Below are positions 22,797-62,229 of a stretch of DNA of 64,000 nt, piece by piece. Every line of letters starts with the position of its first letter. Position 1 is the stretch's first letter. The stretch is taken from contig CM034549.1 in the NCBI GenBank assembly GCA_020055645.1, positions 14,157,930-14,221,929 of the forward strand, read 5' to 3'. Source of the DNA: Tomocerus qinae. Lineage: Eukaryota > Arthropoda > Collembola > Entomobryomorpha > Tomoceridae. Below the pieces are notes generated by a model, which saw nothing but the letters and a program-made list of their open reading frames with translations, did not search any database and was not told where the DNA came from. The translations under genes and the position numbers were made by a program.

Positions 22797-23165
22797 ATGC
22801 ATTTAAAATTCATCATAATATCTTTACATCGACTGTTATAACTTCCGGAGGATCAGTCTGATTTTTATGGGACCTACATTTTGGAACCGTGGACTATCAA
22901 GGAACAAAAGTTATTCGGAATTTTGATATAGTTGTTTTAAATGCATTTAAAAAAATCAAATTCCCAAAAAAATGAGTCATTTTTAGTTTTTTATAAAACG
23001 TTGATGTTTTTGGTCCATTTAAAGCAACTATATCAAAATTCCGAATGCTAACTTTTGTTCCTTGATAGTCCACGGTTCCAAAAATGTAGGTCCCATAAAA
23101 ATCAGACTGATCCTCCGGAAGTTATAATAGTCGATGTAAAAGATTTTTTAACATGCATTTTGATA
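22797..23165. repeat. Foldback MITE, about 370 bp
   Basis: Two arms of about 112-117 bp (22823-22934 and 23025-23141) are near-perfect reverse complements and share blocks such as CTTCCGGAGGATCAGTCTGA and GGACTATCAAGGAACAAAAG. They are separated by an AT-rich spacer of about 90 bp, and ATGCAT-containing ends extend the symmetry outward. A diverged relative of the right arm lies at about 54650-54850. No coding capacity. A foldback MITE is the simplest reading; its superfamily is unknown. Confidence 0.78.
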
Positions 23166-35473: not shown

Positions 35474-38400
35474 TTATGCGTAGCACAAATCTTCTGGAGA
35501 AAATTGGTTCCAAAATTTCATCCTTGGAAGAATAACGTCAGTGATCTCTAAATCATTATCCACACGAAGCCATTTGATTCTGTTGTCTGTAGGACTTATA
35601 GGATCCCAAGAATTCACTCCTGGTGCAGAAACATTCCTATTGATACACATAATATACAAAGTATTTCGAAGAGTAGAATTGGTAAGTTTATTAGCAGTAT
35701 AGAATTATTAATTACTTGTATGTAGGTAATGTTTTGTAATATTTAAACCGTACCCTGTTTCAGCAAATTCAACCCACATCTTAATAAACTTCTTTGAAAA
35801 GTTGTAATTTTCGGATTCCTTTGTAATAATTGGAAATCTGTCATCTAAGTAGTGATACATAAACTGAAAAAGGAAACGACAGGGAAAATAACAATAATGC
35901 ATGATAACATTGATAACACATAGCACCAAAAACTTGTAGTCTACATTTACATTTTACATACAATTATATGTAAGTATCAGAAATTATCTCTTCACCTGGA
36001 GTTCGTCCCCATGAGAGGGTCCTGGAAAAAATTCAAATGCAAACTAAAGTCTTAGAATTCAGAGTTTAGGTTCTATTAAACACAAAAAATGTTGATTCTC
36101 TACCGTAATCCCAATTTGGAAACCCTTCTTTTTTAGAATCTGCATAACTCTTTGTGACTTTTTTAGTGAAGTAGTAGAGATAAATATCTTCTAAACTGTG
36201 AATAGCATGCCAACTTGCAGCAATATAAGTAGGGTGAATGTAAATGTGATCTGATATTAAATTAGTCAGGTTTCTCCAAGTATCATTTCCTACACTTTTG
36301 TCACCGAAATAAAAATCCCAAATTTTATTAGAAATTGCATCTGGGTTTATGGCCGAACTGTTCCATACAAATTGGGATGGTGCTAATTGGGTCCAGTTTT
36401 GGTTTAGCATTTCCACCACTTCTGGATCCTTTAAGATGTCTGAAGAGTAATAGTAATCAAAATATTCCTATTCATTGTACTATTTAATTATACTGCAATA
36501 AGTAATTGGTAAAGTAATTTACTTCAATATACTTCACTGAGTTTACCTAATGCTCCTTTTAACTGTTCGGATTCAGTGTTCCCCAAGATATAAGGTACTT
36601 TGATAACATTTCCAGCTTTGAGACGATTGTAAGGTGTATCTGGCATGAAAATCTCACTAAGGTCATTCGGATCTTTAATAAATTCAACGGTTGTTCCAAA
36701 CGCTGTAGGAAACTCTTCTTTAGGAGGATTTATTGCTACTAGGGCGTCTGCATCGGCATCCCGAAGGCATCTTGCTAAACGTCTTGTTGTTTTAGTGGAA
36801 CAATTTAATTGTTCTCCTATGTATTGGACTACTCTGAGGGGATTCTTTACGAGAATGCTTGGAACAATTGAAACACCACTGAGACCCAAAGCCCGGGCAA
36901 ATAATCCTAATTAAAATGAGTAAGAATTTCTTAGCATAATATTTCTCCCTTTCTTTTCAACTGTAGTCAAGATTCTAAAAGTTTCTTTCCGTTTGACGAG
37001 ACATAAAAGGTTTTATATTTAAAGATGAAAAAATACCTTCACTCATAGGAGATATCATGTGATTGCTTACAGAAATTGATCCTGAGCTGGATCCAAAAAG
37101 AGTCACCTATAAACATATTGAATAATGCCACGATAGCAGAATTGAAGCACAAGCACAGTGGACTGTATATTTTAAGATAAATTTATTGAAACTATCTGGA
37201 AAAGCAACTATTTTCTAGCAATTTAGGAGAAAGTGGAGAGGACCGAAATGTCGTCCGACTTTCATGGACAAATCAAGTAGAATGAAATAATTTACGTTTT
37301 ACAATACAACTTTAGGATAATAACGATTATTTGTAGCAAACATTTAGTAACCTAGTTAACACATGCATAATTTAGGCTGACATTTTACACACATTACATC
37401 ATCACACTATTCAGAATCCAATATATTCCCCGCGTAGAAAGACTATCTTTCTAATAAATGTAATGTAAGCAATTAACAATGGAACATACAATTATTTAAA
37501 ACTAATCAAATGGTAATACACATATTTTCACAACAGGTCTCTTGATAATTCCAGTTTGGGTCTTAGCAGTCACCACACGAACTAGATTATCCTTTCCACG
37601 ATGAACATCGACGATACGTCCCATGTTCCATTTTTGAGGGGGTAATTGGTCATCCTTTATCAGCACCATGTCACCAGTCTTCAGATTGGGTTTTTCTTCT
37701 GTCCACTTCGTTCGTTGCTGCAAATTGCTGAGATATTCCACTTGCCAGCGTTTCCAGAAATCTTGAGTGATTCGCTGTAAGAGTTGCCATCTTGAAAGTG
37801 TGTTCATTTTCAAATGACATAGATCAGGCTCAGGAATTGCTGTTAATGCGTCTCCAATTAGAAAGTGTCCAGGTGTAAGCACAGAAAGATCTTCTGGTGA
37901 GCTTGACAATGGACATAGTGGACGTGAATTTAGGCAGGCCTCCACTTGACACAACACAGTTGTAAATTCTTCAAAGGTAAGTAGGGCATTCCCAATGACA
38001 CGACGAAGATGATGTTTACACGATTTGACTCCTGCTTCGCAAATCCCGGCGAAGTGAGGGGAGGAGGCAGGAACGCGATGAAAATTAGTTCCGTCGTTAG
38101 CCAAGTAATTCTTGAGAGTTTCATCCGATTTTATTGACAAGTTGTATAGTTTTTCCAATTCAGATTTTGCTCCAACAAAAGTAGTGCCATTATCTGAAAA
38201 GATATCTGAGCATATCCCACGACGAGAGATGAATCTCTTCAAGGCTGCTAGAAAAGCATCTGTAGTAAGATCACTTACTAATTCCAAATGTACAGCCTTG
38301 GTTGACAAGCAAACGAAAATGGCAATGTATCCTTTCGTCATTTGTCTTCGTCCACGACCACTTGCTACACGTAATGTGACTGGACCGGCGTAGTCGACTC

Positions 38401-41400
38401 CAGTCTTGAGAAACGGCCGAGCGGATTCCACACGGGGTTTCGGTAAATCTCCCATCAGCTGTTGTGCTGTAACTGCTCGCTGCCGAAAACAAATAACACA
38501 TTTATGCACAAATCTTCGAACAACATCTCGGCCACAAATGATCCAAAATCTTCGTTGTAGGGTAGAAAACAGCAACCGAGGTCCAGCATGCAACATCCTT
38601 TTATGTTCATAGTCAACAATTAGATTGGTGAGAGAGTGACGGCGAGGTAGAAGTATTGGATGTTTTTGGTTAAATGGTAAGGATGAGTGACGTAATCTTC
38701 CTCCAACTCTGAGAAGTCCCTCGTCGTCCAGAAATGGCCGTAAAGACAGAAGGGGACTTTTACTTGAAAGCTCCGTATTACTTTTACATGCCTTAATTTC
38801 TTCAGAAAATTCCTCTAACTGCACACATTTGATTATAACATGAAGTGATTCTTGTAATTCATTTGTTGACAATCCTCCAGTCAGTTTTATCACATTTTTC
38901 TTGATATTGTTTATATAACGTAAACAATATGACGTTTGACGTACCAAAGTTGTAAGTGATGAGTACCGAGATAATAATTCAAATTCTTGTTTAGTTGTAA
39001 CTGCACAAATTGCTTCTTTCTTTTGCTCCAGGAGACACAAATCCGTAGAGACTTTTATACTTGACTTTGGCCATTGTTCTGACTCACTTGCTAGCCAGGT
39101 CGGTCCATTCCACCACAAGGGGTGAGTTTTCAGCTCACTAGGCAGGATACCACGTGAGGCTACATCAGCTGGATTGTCTTCCGAAGACACATGATTCCAC
39201 TGACCTGGAGGTACCAAATCCTGTATTTCAGACACTCTATTTGCAACAAACGTCTTCCATCTATTTGGATGTCCACTGAGCCACGACAAGACAATTGTAG
39301 AGTCCGTCCAACAGTAAATATTTTCATAATCCAAATTCAATGAATTCTTCACAGCCGTGACTAGTCTTGCAAGCAGCAAAGCACCACACAGTTCCAGACG
39401 GGGCAGTGATATTTGCTTGATCGGAGATACTTTTGTTTTTGCACACCCAAGGCTAATCTTCACATTTTTATTATTATCAATAGTACGAAAGTATACTACT
39501 GCACTATAAGCTGAATTGGATGCATCGGAGAATCCATGAAGCTGATAGCTCCCACTCCGCCCCCGGGAATGAATCCACCGATTTATTTTTATATCTTCTA
39601 AGGTAGAGAGTTCACTTCTGAATTTTAGCCATGATTCTGTTACTTCACTTGGTAGTTGGTCGTCCCAGTTGAGTCCCAAAAGCCACAATTTTTGAAATGT
39701 AATTTTTGCTAAAATTACCGCAGGAGCCAACCATCCAAGAGGATCAAAGATCTGAGCCACATCTGAAAGAAGTCCACGTTTAGTTAGTCTGCCTTTAACA
39801 TCGGGTAAACAAACTTTGAATGTAAATTCGTCTGTTGCAGGATGCCACATGATTCCCAATGTTTTCACTGAATTTTCTAAGTTGAATTCCAATGGGGTTT
39901 TGGTTTCACGATATTCCACAGGTAGAGAATCCAATAATTCGTTGCAATTTGATGACCACTTCCTTAATTGTAGGCCTCCACGATTTAACATTTCTATTAG
40001 CTGTGATTGGAGTTCCAATGCTGTATGAATGTCACTAGCCCCCGAGAGTAAGTCATCCATGTAAAAATCTCGTCGCAAAACTTCGGCTGCCATAGGAAGA
40101 TCCTTTTCTTCGTCATGTGACAACTGCTGCAGACACTTTGTAGCTATATATGGAGCAGAAGATGTTCCATATGTCACGGTTAGCAGTCGATAATCTTGAA
40201 TTGGTAGATCTGGTGAATCTCTCCAAACGATGCGTTGAAAATCCGTGTCTGATTTATTCACCCAGATCTGACGATACATTTTGGCTATATCCGCTGTCAC
40301 TGCAACCTTGTGAGTCCGAAAGCGTAGCACTAACTCGAACAAATCTTGCTGTAACTTTGGGCCAACTAATTGTTTGTCATTCAATGACACTTGAGTGGTC
40401 GTCTTCTTGGAGGCGTCGAAAACCACTCGAAGCTTAGTAGTAGTACTATTGTCATTGACCACAAAATGATGAGGTAAGTAATAACTTTCACTTACTGGCT
40501 TGCTAATTTCTGCAGTTGGTACTAATTCCATATGTCCAAGATCCAGATACTCCTTCATAAATGCACGATATTGAATTTTTCGGTGTGGGTTTTGTTCCAA
40601 TCTTCGTTCAATTTGCTTTAAACGGATGACTGCACTGCTTCTTGAGTCGCCAAGATGCAAATTATCTTCTTTCTTGAAAGGTAAACAAACTACAAATTTA
40701 CCGCTGCTGTCTCGAGTGTGTGTCGCTGTAAAATGAGCTTCGCATTGTTTTTCTTCCTGAGATAAAGCTGGAACAGCTGACTGTACTTCCTCCACTTTCC
40801 AAAACATTTGTAATTGTTTATCAACATCAACATCCAAAGAGACATGACTCACCACCAAATCTTCTGTTTGATTAACACTGCCAAAGAGGATCCAACCCAA
40901 AACGGTTTTCTGTGCCGTCGGTGCTCCAGTTGTACCTTTAATGAGTCCATTCAACATAAGATCAGAGTAAATATCCATACCCAACATTATGTCAATGTCA
41001 CTGCTCCTGTAGTAGTGAGGGCCTGCCAGAGTTAGATTTTTGATATGGTCCCAGTTATGATTTTGAATATCGTAATTTGGTAACTTTTTTGTTATTTTTG
41101 GAAGTATCAGCAATTCCAAATCCATCTTGAATGGTGAGTTAGTCGATTCCAACTCCACGCATACTGCACCAGTAGCTGCACATGACGATAGAGCTACTCC
41201 ATGAAAGTTTACATTAACCTTTGATCTCTTCAGTCCGAGTCGCTGAATGCAGGCTTCCGAAATAAAGCTGCCTTGAGATCCACTATCCAGAAAGGCTCGA
41301 CACTTTTGTAGTTGTCCACACTTGTCCTTTATCATAATAATTGCTGTTGATAGTAAAACTTGACTAAAACTTGTTTGCATATGATTAGTTGCAAGCTTCG

Positions 41401-44400
41401 GCTCCTTGCTTTCACTTGCCTTCACATTCTTATTTTCTTGCTTTGATTGAGGTTTCGAATTTGTAAAATGTAGTAGGGTGTGATGTTTCTTCTCACACTC
41501 CCGGCAAACATTGACACTATTGCACTGATATAAACTATGTCCACTGCGTAAGCAATTGAAGCATAATTTCTTCTGTCTTGCGATTTCTGTACGCTCTTTC
41601 ACATTAGCTTTCAGAAAATCTGGGCATTTCGTAATGATGACATGTAAACTTGAAGTACATCCAGGGCATGACTTGCTGTTTGTTGATACATGAAATGAGT
41701 TGGTAGATTTGTCCTCTACGCTTCTTTCTTCACTATATTTGTTTGTTGATTTTTGCTTCGGAGTCTGAATGATCTCCAAAGCCCCGCACCTCCTTTTCAG
41801 AAAGTCTGAAAATACTTTCATCGTTGGAACATCCGTGTTGACCAACGACAATTCCCACTGCCTCCTAGACTCAGGATCCAACTTTCCTGAGAGGAGAAAT
41901 ACAACCAGGGAGTCCCACTGATCCACAGGCTGTCCAAGCACTTTAAGTGCACGAATATTTTGAATAGTGGTGTCTAGTAGTTTACGTAGACCACCAGCAC
42001 TTTCACTTTGAAGATTGGTTTGATTGCACAATGACTTCAAATGCGAATACACAATGTTTCTTTTGTTTTCATACCGATCCTTGAGAATTGTCCAAGCTTC
42101 TCCGTAGTTGGCATCGGTGATTGACACTGAACGAAGTAAATCCTTAGCAGATCCTTCCAGTGACGATTTTAAGTAGTTTAATTTCTGTGATCCAGATAAA
42201 GTTTTGTTATTATGGACAGAAGCATGAAATTGGTCGTAGAAAGACGTCCAATCTTGATAATCTCCAGAGAATTTAGGCAATTCAATGCGAGGTAGCTTCA
42301 CATCTGGAGGGTGCACATATGATGACTGAGGCTGAGAGGTTGATGGTACTGCAGAAGATGACTGACCTGTTACTTGATGACGAGTTAGCTTGAGCAATTT
42401 CGTTCTCAAGGTTACGTACCTGTTTTCAAAGTCTTCACTTTCAGTCTCATGGGCTTGAATTTCCTCCTCATCCGCGGCCAACAAAACAATCTCCGTATGA
42501 ATTTCTTGGAAGGTTTTCCAAGCTTCTTCCAAAATTACCAGTTTTGTCTCGATATCTTCGACATTGTAGGCGTTGACATCGAGAGCTTCCACGAAGGTAT
42601 TCGTCCTAGTCAACTTTCCCTTGAGGATTCCACGTTTCTTAATAAGATGATCCATACTTGATAGTAGAAAATAGCTTGATCCAAACTAGTAGTAGTTTTC
42701 ACAGTTTTCCAGGTAGCTGATCCAAATTTCTTGACGGGCGAAGGACCATGAATAATGCCACGATAGCAGAATTGAAGCACAAGCACAGTGGACTGTATAT
42801 TTTAAGATAAATTTATTGAAACTATCTGGAAAAGCAACTATTTTCTAGCAATTTAGGAGAAAGTGGAGAGGACCGAAATGTCGTCCGACTTTCATGGACA
42901 AATCAAGTAGAATGAAATAATTTACGTTTTACAATACAACTTTAGGATAATAACGATTATTTGTAGCAAACATTTAGTAACCTAGTTAACACATGCATAA
43001 TTTAGGCTGACATTTTACACACATTACATCATCACACTATTCAGAATCCAACACATATATCTATTAAAAATCAAATTAAATCAAATTGACTACATCCTAA
43101 ATTGCAGGAGTGTCAGAATATTACCTATACTCCAAAATCTAACCATATTTGTTTCTAAATCCAAAGTAAATATAAATATGCGTAAATAATGTTGACCTTA
43201 GTTGGATCTCCCCCAAATGCCTCGACATTTTCCTGAACCCATTTCAGAACCATAACTTGATCTGTCAAGGTATAAAATTAAATACTATCAACATTTATTT
43301 TTTAGAATTATTAAGCTTACTGTTGCAAATATTTCATGTTTTCTATCTACCATAACATAAACTAACCTTTGAATCCCAAATTTCCAGGAATTTCTCCATC
43401 TTCTGTGTTTAAGAAGCCTTAAAAACAAATGTATACGACATGCAATTATATGCCAGCAAGTTTCAACCGTATATAAATGAGCATGCAGATTGAATGTTTA
43501 AATTCAATGAGTTAAATTGAGATTCGAAGCAAACTGCATTATATAGTTTATAAATGTATTACCAAAGGGTCCGACTCTATGCTGGAAAACGACAAAAATT
43601 ACATCTTCATCCATTAAATACTCAGGAGAATATACATTACAATCCTAGAGTTGGGATAAGATATTAGTGATAATGTACATATATGTAATGCTAATAGTGT
43701 TAATAATATTTATTTGCGAATTAGAATAATATTCTAACAAAATTGTAATTACCCCTGAAAAAAATGCTCCTCCAAAAATGTATACCATTACTGGTAGCAA
43801 AGTTTGGTTAGTGCCATCTTTTTTAGGAAGCTGTATGAAAAATGTACAACTAGTTTATTTGAAAATTACAAAAATTTCTATTAATGAATAAATTTTTAAT
43901 TCTCTAATTTTTTAATAATTTAATTTAATTTTGAAATTCGTCAATTTCACCTTAGGTGTATGCAGATTTAAGTAGAGACAATCCTCTGACCCTCGAGGCA
44001 ATCCTGTTTTTACGTCTATTGGTTGTTTACAGGGAGGAGGCCCTTGCGAGTTGCTTAAAATTCCATTCCATTTCTCTGCAGGTCTTGGATTCTAAACAAA
44101 CAATTTAATCGAACCTTGTGTTGTGTTAACATAATTAAATATATCCTAAATATTCATTTCTCATAATTTAATGTTCGCATGGCATGATTTGTTCGCTTTG
44201 CACCTTAAAACGTAATCGACCTATTGGTGGCTGAGCAAAAGGAATTTTGTAGAAAACGTAATAATTTCTACCATCCCGTGAGACTAGTGTTCTTCCTTCA
44301 ACTTTTCCCAAATTAGTTTCTACAATTAAATCATTAGCAACAGTCTCTCCAACATTCGATTGCTTCAGCAATGACCTTTGATCCTGATATGCTACATTTG

Positions 44401-51442: not shown

Positions 51443-51772
51443 ACTTTTTTTGGAAATCCCCTAAGGATCTGAGACCACTGGTCCTACAGCCGTACAATAA
51501 TTTTTTTTAAATTCTTTGTTACTTATTCTATGGTAGTTATATTGAAAATTCAACATTTTGGTCTTCGACTAGAAGATAGCATCGTTTGAAACCGAAAAAT
51601 GTGTGTTTTTTTGTGAATTATATATTGCGAATTTATATCTTCAAGTCAAAGCCCAAAATGTGGAATTTTCAATATAACTACCATAGAATAAGTATCGAAG
51701 AATTTTTTAAAAATTAATGTACGGCTGTAGGACTAGTGGTCTCAGATCCTTAGGGAATTTCCAAAAAAAAGT
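51443..51772. repeat. Foldback element, family 1 (copy a)
   Basis: Inverted arms 51443-51572 and 51641-51772 are near-complementary and carry blocks such as CTAAGGATCTGAGACCACT and CTATGGTAGTTATATTG, around a spacer of about 70 bp. A diverged relative with the same arm motif lies at 62767-63262. No coding capacity. Confidence 0.75.
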
Positions 51773-52296: not shown

Positions 52297-53046
52297 AACA
52301 TTGATAACCCTAATCAAGATAATCTGTATTCTATTTTTATCACTTCGTAAGAGAATCAAGAGTCGGAGTCAAATTTTTAGGAAACCACCTTAGTTACTAT
52401 TGTTCTCGTGAACTAACATCGGTTGTACAGAAAAGATACGAACCCTATCCCTTCAATACTAAATCAGTTTCCATAGGGTTAGATTTGTCGCCCGTCCGGT
52501 GTGTGTTAAAATGGGTTTTAACCTGTGAAAGCTATGTCACGCCCTACTGCCCTGTACGAAAGTCATTTTGGATATGATCGCTAGGCTGTTTCCAGTTTCG
52601 GGGCAGGAATGTGAAAAACATTTAAAATTGGGTAATGGTTATTTTCAGTCTGCCCTCTGTACATGTTCAAAAAATTTGCTTTTTTATTAACCTTAATTGT
52701 AATTATCAATTATTGAAACGTAACTCCTTACAAATTAATGATAAAAACATGAAGCTATGGATGATGGATAATTATTGTTAGAAGAAATCAATGAAACATT
52801 TACATTTTACGTATTTAAATGAGAATACAGAATATAGCACTGCACTTTGAAATAGTTGTGGAGGTCATTGTTGCGTCTCATTGGATGTTGTAGTCAGTAA
52901 GTCCAGGAAATAAATAGCAAAAGACAGGGGACGAAAGCTGTAAGAAGGCCGAGTTAAATCGCAATAAGATACCACATATTTAGGGTTGATCTACATATTG
53001 CGTAATCAAAAAATTTAGCGGTTTTTAGAACCACCTTTTTCCTCTG

Positions 53047-54451
53047 TCATTAAATGTCAACATTTCAGTCATTAAATGTCAACATTTCAGTCATTAAATG
53101 TCAACATTTCAGTCATTAAATGTCAACATTTCAGTCATTAAATGTCAACATTTCAGTCATTAAATGTCAACATTTCAGTCATTAAATGTCAACATTTCAG
53201 TCATTAAATGTCAACATTTCAGTCATTAAATGTCAACATTTCAGTCATTAAATGTCAACATTTCAGTCATTAAATGTCAACATTTCAGTCATTAAATGTC
53301 AACATTTCAGTCATTAAATGTCAACATTTCAGTCATTAAATGTCAACATTTCAGTCATTAAATGTCAACATTTCAGTCATTAAATGTCAACATTTCAGTC
53401 ATTAAATGTCAACATTTCAGTCATTAAATGTCAACATTTCAGTCATTAAATGTCAACATTTCAGTCATTAAATGTCAACATTTCAGTCATTAAATGTCAA
53501 CATTTCAGTCATTAAATGTCAACATTTCAGTCATTAAATGTCAACATTTCAGTCATTAAATGTCAACATTTCAGTCATTAAATGTCAACATTTCAGTCAT
53601 TAAATGTCAACATTTCAGTCATTAAATGTCAACATTTCAGTCATTAAATGTCAACATTTCAGTCATTAAATGTCAACATTTCAGTCATTAAATGTCAACA
53701 TTTCAGTCATTAAATGTCAACATTTCAGTCATTAAATGTCAACATTTCAGTCATTAAATGTCAACATTTCAGTCATTAAATGTCAACATTTCAGTCATTA
53801 AATGTCAACATTTCAGTCATTAAATTTCAACATTTCAGTCATTAAATGTCAACATTTCAGTCATTAAATGTCAACATTTCAGTCATTAAATGTCAACATT
53901 TCAGTCATTAAATGTCAACATTTCAGTCATTAAATGTCAACATTTCAGTCATTAAATGTCAACATTTCAGTCATTAAATGTCAACATTTCAGTCATTAAA
54001 TGTCAACATTTCAGTCATTAAATGTCAACATTTCAGTCATTAAATGTCAACATTTCAGTCATTAAATGTCAACATTTCAGTCATTAAATGTCAACATTTC
54101 AGTCATTAAATGTCAACATTTCAGTCATTAAATGTCAACATTTCAGTCATTAAATGTCAACATTTCAGTCATTAAATGTCAACATTTCAGTCATTAAATG
54201 TCAACATTTCAGTCATTAAATGTCAACATTTCAGTCATTAAATGTCAACATTTCAGTCATTAAATGTCAACATTTCAGTCATTAAATGTCAACATTTCAG
54301 TCATTAAATGTCAACATTTCAGTCATTAAATGTCAACATTTCAGTCATTAAATGTCAACATTTCAGTCATTAAATGTCAACATTTCAGTCATTAAATGTC
54401 AACATTTCAGTCATTAAATGTCAACATTTCAGTCATTAAATGTCAACATTT
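53047..54451. repeat. 22-bp minisatellite, 63 full units plus a partial 64th
   Basis: The unit is 22 bp, starts TCATTAAATGTCAACATTT and ends CAG. Units follow without gaps from 53047; the last, at 54433-54451, is cut after 19 bp and runs into AATGA. By eye only one base differs in the whole array (G to T at 53826, in the 36th unit). Each unit contains AAATGT-CA-ACATTT, a 6-bp inverted pair. The array begins exactly at the inner end of the left foldback arm. Confidence 0.97.
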
Positions 54452-54649
54452 AATGAATTAATTTGAATCAAAAATGTTTATTTTCATTTTTTGGTCTATT
54501 TATTACCCGATTCTATTTAGAACTTTTTTTAATGAGAATATGGCACTGCACTATGCACTATCTGTAATATAATAAGATATAGTACAGTGCCGTTTCGGTA
54601 TATCGGACGGAATATATAGGTAATGATGTTTTATTGTCACTTCAACCTT

Positions 54650-54850
54650 AAATAGCATTTAGAGAATTTGATAGATTTTTTAAAGCATTTAGAGCAACGA
54701 TATCAAAAATCCATCCTCCCTAATCCATTCCTCGATAGTCCAGGATTCCAAAAATGTAAGTCCCAAAAAAATCGGTCTTATCCTTCGGGAGTAATTAAGC
54801 CAGAAGTAAAACATTTTTTAACATGCATTTAGATAGGCCCGGTTGCTATG
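54650..54850. repeat. Remnant related to the 22.8-kb foldback MITE
   Basis: Collinear with 23013-23165: both read gatagtcca, then GATTCCAAAAATGTA or a near match, then a TCCTTCGG/TCCTCCGG block, then TTTTTTAACATGCATTT and the CGGTTGCTATG-like end. Only one arm is present, so this is a half element inside the large foldback. Confidence 0.6.
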
Positions 54851-55486
54851 AAGGCTTCCGTGGAGAGCCTCCTTAATAAATTAAATTTTAAGCATTCGAA
54901 CTGAATTTTTGATTCGAACTTATTATGATGACATATCATAGGGGAGTCCGGCAAATGTTGACATTTGATGACAGAGGGAAAAGATGATTCTAAAAACCGC
55001 TAAATTTTTTGATTACGTAATATGTGGATCAACTATAAATACGTGGTACTTTATTGCGACTTAACTCGGCCTTTCGTCCCCTGTCTTTGCTATTTATTTC
55101 CTGGACTTATTGGCTACAACATCCAATGAGACGCAACAATGACCTACATACAACCATTTCAAAGTGCAGTGCTATATTCTGTATTCTCATTTAAATACGT
55201 AAAACGTAAATGTTTCATTGATTTCTTCTATAACAACAATTATCCAAGCTTCATGTTTTTATCATTAATTTGTAAGGAGTTACGTTTCAATAATTGATAA
55301 TTACAATTGAGGTTAATAAAAAGGCAATTTTTTTGAACATGTACAGAGTGCAAACTGAAAAAAACCATTACCCAATTTTATATGTTTTTCACATTCCTGC
55401 CCCGAAACTGGAAACAGCCTAGCGATCATATCCAAATGACTTTCGTACAGGGCAGTAGGGCGTGGGCGTGACATAGCTTCCACAGG

Positions 55487-55972
55487 TTAAGGTTCAGGGT
55501 TTTTCAAAATACGGGGGAATTCAATAAATAAAGGTGAAATAAATTTGATGGGGAAGTATCTATGACTACGATTTAAAATCGCATAGAGGCATAGAAATTT
55601 ACTCTATGACAAGGTTGAAAAAAACTTTTTTGGCAAACTGGAAACTCCTCCGAGAATACTGGTCGTAGAAAGACAAGATTGGTCTCTAAATTCACAGAAA
55701 AACCTGGTTGAGGTCTGGTAATCAAATCTAATTCATATTCATCTCCAATTTCGAGATATTGCGAATTTAAAATTAAAACCTTAATATCTCAAAATTGGAG
55801 ATGAATGAATTAGATTTGATTACCAGACCTCAACCAGGTTTTTCTGTGAATTTAGAGACCAATCTTGTCTTTCTACGACCAGTATTCTCGGAGGAGTTTC
55901 CAATTTGGCAAAAAAAGTTTAGGGCTAATTTGATAGTCGAGGTCATGTCCCGTAACTTGGTAACCCTTCCTC
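55487..55972. mobile_element. TTAA-flanked MITE (piggyBac-type), copy 1
   Basis: The body 55491-55972 (482 bp) is bounded by TTAA at 55487-55490 and 55973-55976. The left foldback arm still has the unfilled site, a single TTAA in the same context (about 52517-52520, ACAGG-TTAA-AACC read on the minus strand), proving insertion at TTAA with duplication. The interior is a near-perfect hairpin: arms 55622-55761 and 55781-55920. The ends read GGTTCAGGG and CCCTTCCTC. TTAA duplication is the hallmark of piggyBac-type transposition. Non-coding. Confidence 0.88.
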
Positions 55973-56103
55973 TTAAAACCAATTTTAACACACACTGACT
56001 TGGCGACAAATCTAACTCTATGCTAAGTTTGTTGTCATAGAAAAGTATGTATCCATACCTTTCTGTACAACAGAAGTTTCGATGGGAGTACAATAACTAA
56101 TTA

Positions 56104-58435: not shown

Positions 58436-59373
58436 CAAGGTATCGAAAAACCCGGGTTTTTTAGGAAAAAACCCTCGACTCCGGGTTTTTTGGGTTTTTT
58501 GGGTTTAAGGGTTTTTTATATAACTATAGGTATAAATACAAGCCTATACTATACCATATATGACATATGAAAACTACAGCTGACAACAACAACAACCGTG
58601 TCAACTACTATTACTTACGTCAATGAAAAGAAAAATTAAAGCATAAAAGTTTAATTTTATTATGTTGTAACGTAGCAAATGCATTATTTTTTGTGAACAC
58701 CTATATCATTATTACTGTTTCCTAGTGAAATATTAAGCATTATAATATTTTACTGATTATATTGACTTTATGAAATTATTCCTTCGTTAATTTGAAGCCT
58801 TAATTGCAAAGCAGTACAGTAATGAATATGTAAGTGATAAATTGAAATTGAGCATAAGTGTCCAACAATATTATAAACATAATCTTTATTATGGTTCCGC
58901 TGCCACAGTTCTCTCTTTGTATTCGAAAGACAATGGGTCATATGTTGCAATACAAAGACTTAACTTCAGCGCAAACTTCGAGTCGAGCAAATCAACGTGG
59001 GAGGTCCATTGTAATGCAACATATGATCCATTGTCTTTCGAATACAAAGAGAGAACTGTGGCAGCGGAACCATAATACAATGCAATGACTAAAGAATACA
59101 TAAAACTAATATTATTATAGTCCTCACATTACGATACATTAATTACGCGTAGAAGTGTAGAAGCTATATTTGTTTCCACCTGATTATGCATTTGTTTACA
59201 TTTTTGAATAGAAATTAGTATGTATTGAGTATCTAGATGGAGCTGTAGTGCACATTTTTGTATGTTTTGTAAAAAACCCAAAAAACCCAATAAACCCGGG
59301 GTTTTTTAAGTAAAGCGGGGTGGGTTTTTTGCCAAAAAACCCCAACCCATAAAAAACCCGACCCAAAACCCTG
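58436..59373. mobile_element. 938-bp hAT-like non-autonomous element
   Basis: Flanked by the 8-bp duplication ACTAACTT (58428-58435 and 59374-59381). The termini are CAAGG and CCCTG (CAGGG on the other strand), matching the CAGGG ends common in hAT elements. Both subterminal regions are packed with GGGTTTT/AAAACCC motifs (58446-58516 and 59272-59370), as expected for transposase-binding repeats. No transposase frame is present. A separate hairpin lies inside at 58886-59079. Confidence 0.8.
58886..59079. repeat. Hairpin nested in the hAT-like element
   Basis: Inverted arms of about 70 bp (58886-58955 and 59009-59079) share GGTTCCGCTGCCACAGTTCT and TTTGTATTCGAAAGACAATG, around a loop of about 53 bp. 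The symmetry produces matching open frames on both strands, which are not genes. It is likely a MITE inserted in the hAT-like element. Confidence 0.8.
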
Positions 59374-59697: not shown

Positions 59698-60032
59698 ATT
59701 TCAACCAAGGAGCTTTTACGTTGTTATAGTATCATCGTTTAATAAGGAGGGCCAAGTAGAGAATTCCCCATAAAGGATTTTGAAGATCTATAAGGGACGT
59801 TTTCTATTTCAAATTGGGGTAAAAAATCCCTTATGATTATGATCATAATAACAAGTTCATTTCCCAATGACGTTGTGGAATGATGTAAGATATGATATCA
59901 CATCATTAATAATGAACTAGGCTAGAGACATTGGATTGCAATTTCATAGGAAGAAATTAATTACACTATCCGATTTTTCTACGGACTGCTTCCTTTCCAT
60001 GAATTGGCAACAGCTATAAAAAGCTTGTTATT

Positions 60033-60356
60033 ATGGGGAAGAAATGTGCTATTTGCGGTAGCAAGGCTAATGGGTTCACAACAATCCACGAGTTCCCCAA
60101 GAAATGTCCAGATATTAGATCAAAATGGATTAAAATCACCACATTGTGCAGAAGCAAGCCTTTCAATCCAGACAACTTCGGAATATGTGGAGCGCATTTT
60201 GATACCAATTCATACAAAAGAGAATACGAGGGGAAGCGAAAGTTACGGGATTGTGCTATTCCAAGTCTTTTCTTGCAAGGAACTGTTAATCAGAGTAACT
60301 CTAATTATTATTTAGTTATACTGTGTTTTAAAATTTGCATTATCTGCTCATCCTAA
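60033..60356 (+). pseudogene. THAP-domain N-terminus of a P-like transposase
   Basis: The frame starts MGKKCAICGS and shows the C2CH zinc module of THAP domains: CAIC near residues 5-8, a conserved W (about 32), CGAHF (about 52-56), and a CAIPSLF box at about 74-80 equivalent to the AVPS-F motif that closes the domain. This DNA-binding domain heads P-element transposases and domesticated THAP proteins. The frame soon runs out after the domain, with no continuation into the RNase-H-like catalytic core. With the C-terminal piece at 60450 it forms the residue of one deleted transposase gene. Confidence 0.85.
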
Positions 60357-60449
60357 TAATATTCTGTTCAAATTATCTTATCAAATTGCATTGTCTGTGT
60401 AGGCAATTCATTATTGCAACTGCAACCAGAACTTTAAACTGTAGAACCG

Positions 60450-60905
60450 ATGTATACTTTAGAAAAGTGTATTGAAGGAGGACTCGAATATGTAGCTGGG
60501 TACATTGCAAAGCGTGTGGGAGATAAGTATCCAGAGCTGACCCGTAAAGCATGGGAAAAGAACGATCAAAATGGTGGTTGGGTAAGGTTTCTTTCTAGAG
60601 GAGGTTTGATAGAACCTTCAAATATCTGGATGGCAGTTTTTAAAAAATTCGAGGAATACTTTATTGAGTACCATCGTGGGATAGGTCAGCACACATTTAA
60701 TCGGAGCTTTGCCGTAGTGGAAAATTTGAACGTTCTTCTTTCTGATTTATATCCTGAAGTTCCCAAAGGAGTAATACAATTATACGTGCGTACTAGAACT
60801 ATTATCCGAATTGATTCAATCAACAGAGCAATACGCCAAGAAAAATTGGAAAAACAGCAAAGGTTACAGAAACGAAGGCAAAATATTTTCCTTTCTCAAA
60901 TGTAA
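60450..60905 (+). pseudogene. C-terminal fragment of the P-like transposase
   Basis: A 151-codon frame containing GGLEYVAGYIAKRV and, 35 residues later, SRGGLIEPS, both typical of the C-terminal region of P-element/THAP9-type transposases. It ends in a Lys/Arg/Gln-rich helix. An in-frame stop lies a few codons upstream of the ATG, and a possible acceptor (TGTAG) at 60444, so it was probably a downstream exon. The GTPase-like and catalytic portions that should precede it are absent: only about 94 bp separate the two fragments. It cannot encode an active enzyme. Confidence 0.8.
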
Positions 60906-61527
60906 GCTACCATTGATATAGAAAACCAATTCATATAGCTGATGTGTCTGGTGTGTATTGAAAAGTGTAAATGCATACAGCCAGAACGTGTGTAATCTTT
61001 ATTGTTAAAGTTGTTATTTATCGTTATGTATTTAATAAATCTTTTAAAATCCTCTATTACTGCTATTTACCGTTACTGGTCCTAGAACCGGAAAGACTAA
61101 AATACCCCAATTTAGTAGTCTCTACATTTTACTTCTGCAATTTCTATTGCCCTGTTTAATTGTTTCCTCAATGCCTCAATTGGTTTCATTTCTACGAGCC
61201 ATTTTTTTATTGAGTCTGTCATTCTCTTTTCTCACACTTGCTAGTTCAACTTTTCTGATACGTTAAAACTTTAACTCTGCATCATAAACTGTACAGCTAA
61301 CTGTTAAATGTGTTGAGACAGTCATACATAATACATTGTGTGTCATATGGATACAAATGGGATTTATAAGTGGAAGTGCAACAACATGCTACGAAACTGT
61401 GTAAAATGATAAAAACAGTCCACAAGGGTTTGAATTCAAGGAATTACAACTTATTTGTAATAATCGGATAGTGTAATTAATTTCCTCCTATGAAATTGCA
61501 ATCCAATGTCTCTAGCCTAGTTCATTA

Positions 61528-62017
61528 TTAAGGTTCAGGTATTTTCAAAATACGGGGAAATTCATTAAAAAAGGTCAAGTAAAGGTTACGGGGAAGTATC
61601 TATGGCTACGTTTTAAAAGTACATGGAGGCATAGAAATTTACTCTATGATAATACTGAAAAATACTTTTTTGGAAAACTTGTAACTCCTCCGAGAATACT
61701 GCTCGTAGAAAGACAAGATTGGACTCTAAAATTCCAGAAAAGGTTGTTTTAACCAACTACGTTGGAAAATTTTAAAATTTTACCTATGGTTGCGAGATAT
61801 TACCTCTTTTTCCACAAAAGCATTAATATCTCAAAATCGGAAGTAAAAATGTTGAATATTCCAACGTACTTGGTTAACACAACCTTTTCTGGAATTTTAG
61901 GGTCCAAACTTGTCTTTCTACCAGCAGTATTCTCGGAGGAGTTACAAGTTTCCAAAAAAAAGTTTAGAGCTATTTTGATAGTCGAGTTCAAGTCACGTGA
62001 CTTGGTAACCGGGAATC
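61528..62017. mobile_element. TTAA-flanked MITE (piggyBac-type), copy 2
   Basis: The body 61532-62017 (486 bp) is bounded by TTAA at 61528-61531 and 62018-62021 and inserted in the right inverted repeat of the P-like element. The left inverted repeat keeps the empty site with one TTAA at 59906-59909. The same family as copy 1: both begin GGTTCAGG, share the CTCCGAGAATACTG block, contain a long central hairpin, and carry GATAGTCGA near the right end. Non-coding. Confidence 0.88.
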
Positions 62018-62229
62018 TTAATGATGTGATATCATATCTTACATCATTCCACAACGTCATTGGGAAATGAACTTGTTATTATGATCATAATCATAAGGGA
62101 TTTTTTACCCCAATTTGAAATAGAAAACGTCCCTTATAGATCTTCAAAATCCTTTATGGGGAATTCTCTACTTGGCCCTCCTTATTAAACGATGATACTA
62201 TAACAACGTAAAAGCTCCTTGATTTCAAC

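Follow-up and report, generated by a model that had tools for sequence, protein, structure and literature searches.

The element at positions 59706–62221 of the window (the whole 64,000 nucleotide stretch of Tomocerus qinae DNA analyzed) is very probably an internal-deletion derivative, unable to move by itself, from a cut-and-paste family of the P superfamily with long terminal inverted repeats (TIRs), one that was mobilized in trans and had its left arm overwritten. A sequence-only reading of this DNA had been correct in its choice of superfamily, in seeing a deletion and in predicting a fuller relative. New here are a nested insert, a deletion history shared with other copies, conversion between the arms and, in one sister subfamily, TIR growth by exon capture.

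The element is bounded by the exact 8-bp target-site duplication (TSD) that had been claimed for it (Table 1). The chance of an 8/8 match is 3e-5 for one fixed 8-mer pair at this base composition. A G precedes each TSD copy, so that 9 bp is formally possible; the TIRs pair best at 8. The repeats had also been described as 270 bp long and equal in length. This holds once a 486-bp insert, which divides the right TIR after its outer 204 bp, is skipped: the arms are then 273 bp long and identical at 271/273 positions, the two exceptions being TIR positions 247 and 271. As it stands, however, the right arm is split. The right-arm pieces, 62221–62018 and 61531–61459, have the TTAA at the insert in common. 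TIRs in the P superfamily are usually short, 30–50 bp, which is a usual and not a defining property, and those of the window copy are beyond this length.

Table 1. Features of the window copy (positions in the window) and TIR lengths of related copies
Feature	Positions	Strand	Remarks
Left copy of the 8-bp TSD, ATTTCAAC	59698..59705	.	exact 8/8 match to right copy
Left TIR, 273 bp, 3′-arm sequence type	59706..59978	+	outer 204 bp the same as right end
TIR core TGAAGATCTATAAGGGACGTTTT, TIR positions 76–98	59781..59803	+	candidate THAP binding site
THAP exon, open frame from ATG	60033..60294	+	C2CH signature, CAIPSLF box
Predicted intron 1, GT..AG	60295..60402	+	L017 has the THAP frame and next frame in the same order
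Exon 2 start, then internal-deletion junction (element 730/741)	60403..60446	+	
P transposase C-terminal piece, open frame (MYTLEKCIEGGLEYVAGYIAKRV...)	60450..60902	+	PF12596, E-value = 3e-5
AATAAA polyadenylation-like signal	61034..61039	+	
Antisense ~78% copy of coiled-coil exon	61117..61271	-	element 1412–1566 vs L017 element 896–724
Right TIR, inner part	61459..61531	-	from arm comparison
Nested 486-bp foldback MITE	61532..62017	.	TTAA both sides (61528–61531, 62018–62021)
Right TIR, outer part, 204 bp	62018..62221	-	100% identical to left end
Right copy of the TSD, ATTTCAAC	62222..62229	.	
TIR of L033, L044			157–174 bp
TIR of L034, L035			507–550 bp
TIR of L037/L038/L039/L043			238 bp
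TIR of L045			182–187 bp
TIR of L047/L048			159–166 bp
TIR of L049			93–105 bp
TIR of L056			87–98 bp

The insert has a second copy at 55487–55976, with an identity of about 76% and likewise with TTAA on both sides. The MITE family, i.e. TTAA-flanked foldbacks of about 490 bp, has two copies in the window, and these interrupt the right arms of two different inverted-repeat elements. The other such element, at 52472–56022, displays arms of about 550 bp (pieces 90%–98% alike) with a 22-bp satellite between them, present 64 times at 99% (53046–54451). Here too the MITE with its TTAA flanks interrupts the right arm (55491–55972), and no clear target duplication was found for this element. The window further contains a BEL/Pao retrotransposon on the minus strand at 37119–43051, whose 303-bp LTRs are identical to each other and whose one open frame encodes 1727 aa, and near-palindromic foldbacks of 190–330 bp at 22823–23140, 51445–51769 and 58887–59077.

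The window copy retains an N-terminal THAP exon and a P-type C-terminal domain. These pieces, together with the P-superfamily transposase encoded by L017, a copy with the same ends, support the P assignment that had been claimed. The THAP exon matches PF05485 (Pfam, E-values 5.3e-10 to 6.6e-10) and PDB THAP1 2ko0 (E-value = 9.2e-7). The C-terminal match sits in an open 155-codon frame and extends to PDB 6p5a_B, the Drosophila P transposase (E-value = 3.5e-6). An in-frame TAA at 60435–60437 lies between the two coding pieces. The RNase H domain with D, D, E and its GTP-binding insertion occurs in L017 but not in the window copy, i.e. the catalytic middle is lost from the latter, just as the sequence-only reading had it. 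A Pfam scan of six further internal frames of the window copy gave no family at cut-off. Protein searches with the window THAP and C-terminal fragments gave no match, and no relative came to light when phage records were searched at the DNA level or when contigs of viruses and prokaryotes were scanned. AlphaFold models made without an alignment have a pLDDT of 49 for the C-terminal piece and 35 for the THAP, which is too poor for use of the fold.

A genome search with the 273-bp arm gave at least 42 matches (40/234 candidates scored), and 20 stretches were taken from the matches for copy analysis; L027–L030, which display one end only, are left out of the copy count. The 8-bp TSDs are perfect and mutually different in 15/15 copies with both complete outer ends (window copy included). 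In L024 the duplication adjoins one changed end base and so none is at the scored place; L026 is truncated at its right end and displays no duplication. The TIR starts with 5′-CA, and CAAGGAGC is found at the left end of 14/14 listed fetched copies as well as of the window copy. A DNA probe of the C-terminal region (30/30 candidates scored) gave 31 matches in the genome. Among the loci, 19 (that of the window is one of them) reach at least 90% identity and 10 lie at 68%–72%; two loci match in two pieces.

L017 is the longest complete copy among those fetched. It is 3754 bp long, has ends as in the window copy and carries the THAP exon and a 647 aa frame. The frame displays PF21787 (TNP-like RNase H N-terminal half, 6e-15), PF21788 (GTP-binding insertion, 7e-12) and PF12596, all above cut-off, and PF21789 (RNase H C-terminal half) below cut-off. 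It aligns with 6p5a_A over 475 residues (E-value = 5.3e-70), and D230, D303 and E531 align to D, D, E, as is also the case in L033, L034, L037 and L047. A protein search with the frame matched 11 unnamed proteins. The suggested search with the repeat has therefore recovered a longer copy with the same ends, and the transposase between them is of the P type and not of another superfamily. The predicted relative is thus found in the same genome, however its frame is broken in the C-terminal part. Three near-complete copies of the window subfamily were judged (L017, L026 and L032) and none of the three is coding-complete: L026 has an internal deletion besides its truncated end and the coding sequence of L032 is interrupted by stops.

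Compared with L017, the window copy is without element positions 730–2434; 729 is joined to 2435 across about 10 filler bases. This junction is common to the window copy, L011, L012, L013, L016 and L024, whereas a different junction (272 to 2641) is common to L018–L023 and L025. The simplest reading is that each deletion arose once and its product was then copied to new sites. The junction common to the window copy and five others indicates that the deleted form spread, presumably in trans, as copying of a deleted product to new sites would need transposase supplied in this way. Outside the arms the window copy has 15/1479, 9/1474 and 11/1471 mismatches to L011, L012 and L013, respectively. 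The mean difference among L018–L023 is 0.3%, and sister copies L037, L038, L039 and L043 differ by 0.06%–0.09%. Such low divergence counts in favor of a probably recent movement.

At positions 1600–1917 of L019, the right-end duplication is followed by a short element with the CAAGGAGC left end and then by the same 8 bases again. The right flank of L022 starts with CAAGGAGC as well. One and the same duplicated target may receive several insertions.

Two arm types, 5′ and 3′, differ by about 5% in L017, which has arms of 272/273 bp together with the full coding middle. The left arm is of the 3′ type up to near the inner edge in the window copy, L011–L013 and L016. The left arm of L024 stays 5′-type despite the same deletion as in the window copy, and that of L014 is chimeric. 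The right arms of L016, L024, L025 and L026 are incomplete and are excluded from this comparison. The pattern of arm types indicates that the arms overwrite one another, in the window copy apparently after the deletion. The near-perfect match of the window arms goes back to replacement of a 5′-type arm by a 3′-type arm, and arm identity is therefore no clock for such insertions. A young age based on the 99% identity of the arms is rejected, the left arm being a converted 3′-type arm.

A search with the L017 frame gave at least 76 matches in the genome (68/394 candidates scored). Inverted repeats were examined in 27 loci, 4 of the window subfamily (L031, L032, L036 and L057) and 23 of other P groups. 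Exact ends were sought in 17/23 of the latter (19 repeat pairs) and found for 13, with TSDs of 8/8 in 11/13 and of 7/8 in L048 and L056; this search is biased because TSD matches of at least 7/8 were demanded. Under the same demand, nine sister copies of the window clade have TSDs of 8/8. The sister subfamilies have a transposase about 66%–71% identical, similar termini, a common TIR core and TIRs of 157–550 bp. Termini in three subfamilies are CAAGGAGC or CAAGAAGC, and one L037 end is CAAAGAGC.

In a tree of 26 rows the window clade forms a 100/100 group, Drosophila P is placed elsewhere and L051–L054 form a separate clade. The tree contains no Galileo, 1360 or THAP9 protein and was made without P0009, L032, L035, L039, L043, L044, L055 and L056 (except for P0009, these are fragmentary or duplicate rows). 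L033, L034, L037 and L038 belong to the window clade by the tree, L035, L039, L043 and L044 as copies at least 99% identical over most of their length, and L045 by its ends only. L047 and L048 belong to a P group further removed, with about 36% identity to L017. Their TIRs seem to start with CCGTAG, not CA, and the THAP, middle and C-terminal matches of L047 are all stop-free. Several loci count against long TIRs as a general rule for P copies here. L046, L050 (a 165-bp repeat) and L051 gave no confirmed ends; L052, L054 and L055 displayed no convincing long TIR, and L040–L042 are cut by the locus edge or displayed nothing. In L053 the repeat is about 55 bp long, and a 9-base repeat in its flanks was noted by eye.

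Alignment of one TIR each from the window copy, L038 and L033 shows 66/273 window TIR positions to be invariant across the three subfamilies. Beyond TIR position ~125 there is hardly any shared position, which is partly built in because the L033 TIR was entered as 174 bp and that of L038 as 238 bp. The TIR core is the best-conserved 23-base stretch of the same alignment, invariant at 20/23 positions, and 0/5000 shuffles reach 20/23. Two sites are found in 6/6 TIRs examined, ATAAGGAG starting at 37–56 and ATAAGGGA starting at 85–95. In Galileo the THAP footprint covers +63 to +80, counted from the element end (PMC3688188), compared with 76–98 for the conserved core here, and on this account the core is a likely transposase site. 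The functional part looks to be the outer ~110 bp with the two conserved ATAAGG sites. The THAP consensus is TxxGGGx(A/T). There are 3 such sequences in the TIR compared with 0.54 by base shuffling (1.6% of 2000 shuffles reach 3), however 7/217 host segments of equal length also reach 3, and thus the binding-site case rests on the conservation across subfamilies instead.

When the 15 target sites are aligned in the direction of the coding strand, they tend towards a TT-(G/A)GTT-TAAC-TAAG-like sequence. With each site in one orientation, unsymmetrised, 72/180 mirrored pairs are complementary compared with a shuffled mean of 54, a count reached in 5/2000 shuffles. A palindromic motif around the TSD has been described for P and Galileo (PMC4168063).

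In the 1.39-kb derivative group the repeat is about 40 bp longer. The 3′ regions of L017 and the window copy display an antisense copy, 77%–78% identical, of the transposase coiled-coil exon. The spacer between the TIR and this antisense copy scored 35.0 against the 5′ end (null mean 38.5), i.e. no similarity, and derivation of the 3′ end from one inverted duplication of the entire 5′ end is therefore unsupported. The TIRs of L034 and L035, two copies of one sister subfamily, include the whole THAP exon at both ends, inverted and facing inwards; in both elements a stop interrupts the THAP copy at the 5′ end, and that at the 3′ end is open. L033 is 95.5% identical to L034/L035 over the first 2.7 kb, has 168–174-bp TIRs and is without a THAP exon at its 3′ end. 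In a third locus, L046, a 506-bp repeat is cut by the locus edge. TIR extension by recruitment of internal sequence is described in Galileo (PMC3573991).

The proposed course of events is as follows. Transposase from a full-length relative would act in trans, binding sites in the TIRs of the element, excising it and joining it to an 8-bp staggered target. A single deletion in an ancestor probably removed the coiled coil, both RNase H halves, the GTP-binding insertion and all three catalytic acids, and the deleted form would then have spread as a unit. The TIRs were probably lengthened by repeated copying of subterminal and 5′ coding sequence from one end to the other. In the window copy, right-arm sequence appears to have overwritten the left arm, with gap repair or conversion as the putative copying process.

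Membership in another superfamily with 8-bp TSDs or THAP domains has a negligible probability. TSDs of hAT are also 8 bp, and THAP domains are carried by Kolobok transposases. The Kolobok target is TTAA, however, and the target sites of these copies are not TTAA. The L017 match to P transposase (E-value 5e-70, 475 residues), along with the two P-type domains in its frame, the TNP-like RNase H and the GTP-binding insertion, rules out both hAT and Kolobok. It is somewhat less improbable, but still very unlikely, that long TIRs are found only in deleted derivatives, i.e. that autonomous members are short-TIR elements and the 273-bp arms arose with the derivative. In its favor, the longest TIRs of D. 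mojavensis Galileo are in non-autonomous copies (PMC3573991), and the 1.39-kb derivatives here have the repeat that is about 40 bp longer. The arm lengths of L017 with its full coding middle argue against this, and nearly complete sister copies (L033, L034 and L037) with arms of 157–550 bp contradict a short-TIR origin.

The window copy could also be a gene under selection, domesticated or regulatory, whose product is a KP-like repressor: either the THAP exon alone (98 aa) or the THAP exon spliced in frame to the C-terminal piece (240 aa). KP is a repressor from a deleted Drosophila P copy (PMC7776569). In the window copy the THAP and C-terminal pieces are both open and an in-frame GT-AG join is present, and the THAP is open (stop-free frame of at least 100 aa) in 8/11 THAP-bearing copies examined, the window's included. 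However the THAP fails the same test in 3/11 copies, and seven copies (L018–L023 and L025) have spread though they are without THAP. In addition, the coiled-coil region is gone from the window copy and a stronger-looking acceptor (by eye) leads to a stop. The copies are closely similar and therefore open frames need no selection. A role of this type is improbable, and the deleted, trans-mobilized P element is the preferred reading.

The ends of the P element itself are CA...TG. The window family resembles Drosophila melanogaster P in these termini, the 8-bp TSD, the THAP, coiled coil and C-terminal domain, the presence of internally deleted non-autonomous copies and, at the family level (via L017), RNase H with D, D, E and the GTP-binding insertion. 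The Drosophila transposase is 32% identical over 481 residues and is outside the window clade in the tree, and its TIRs are 31 bp (PMC7776569) as compared with 273 here. Zebrafish Pdre2/THAP9 shares the 8-bp TSD, THAP and internally deleted relatives (Pdre), and Anopheles AgaP the 8-bp TSD, THAP and MITEs, however the TIRs are 13 bp in Pdre2 (PMC10983969) and 27–31 bp in AgaP (PMC1562414). The P-MITEs of Anopheles gambiae are likewise non-autonomous, with 8-bp TSDs and ends in common with a P family, but their middles are unrelated to P (PMC1562414), while the window copy retains transposase exons.

Galileo is the known exception to short P-superfamily TIRs (PMC3688188). Like the family described here, it combines a THAP-bearing P-type transposase with long TIRs of variable length into which internal sequence is recruited (PMC3573991), and conservation between its subfamilies is limited to the outer TIR (PMC3688188). 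Its TSDs are mostly 7 bp, consensus GTANTAC, as compared with 8 bp in 15/15 copies here, and three D. willistoni Galileo copies have an 8-bp TSD (PMC4168063). Galileo TIRs are about 0.3–1.2 kb, with tandem repeats in some subfamilies, and those of the window clade are 157–550 bp. L034/L035 have an entire coding exon within the TIR, of which no mention was found in the accessible accounts of Galileo. Long TIRs are known from Galileo in Drosophila. The suggestion of a little-described P lineage fits the sister subfamilies, but as regards the long TIRs there is the precedent of Galileo (PMC3688188; PMC3573991). In the open-access literature searched, including the accessible parts of PMC4079207 and PMC8504770, no description was found of long-TIR P elements outside Drosophila or of a TIR that includes a THAP exon.

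In this one genome, TIRs of 87–550 bp are found in several P subfamilies, in a superfamily where long TIRs are otherwise a Galileo speciality in the literature available. The presence of relatives with 168–174-bp and 507–550-bp ends, and of 5′-, 3′- and chimeric arms, makes end growth and conversion traceable stepwise. The 23-bp core within otherwise divergent TIRs is a concrete candidate binding site. A further proposal, which we regard as improbable, is that a radiation of P elements here grows its ends by copying the 5′ part, THAP exon included, into the opposite end, and that TIR growth is a self-made repressor system. If true, the TIR would encode the DNA-binding domain twice, facing inwards, and deletion derivatives with both such ends would keep a source of THAP protein that could bind at the TIR core and so restrain the family. 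TIR growth would then be more than a mere by-product.
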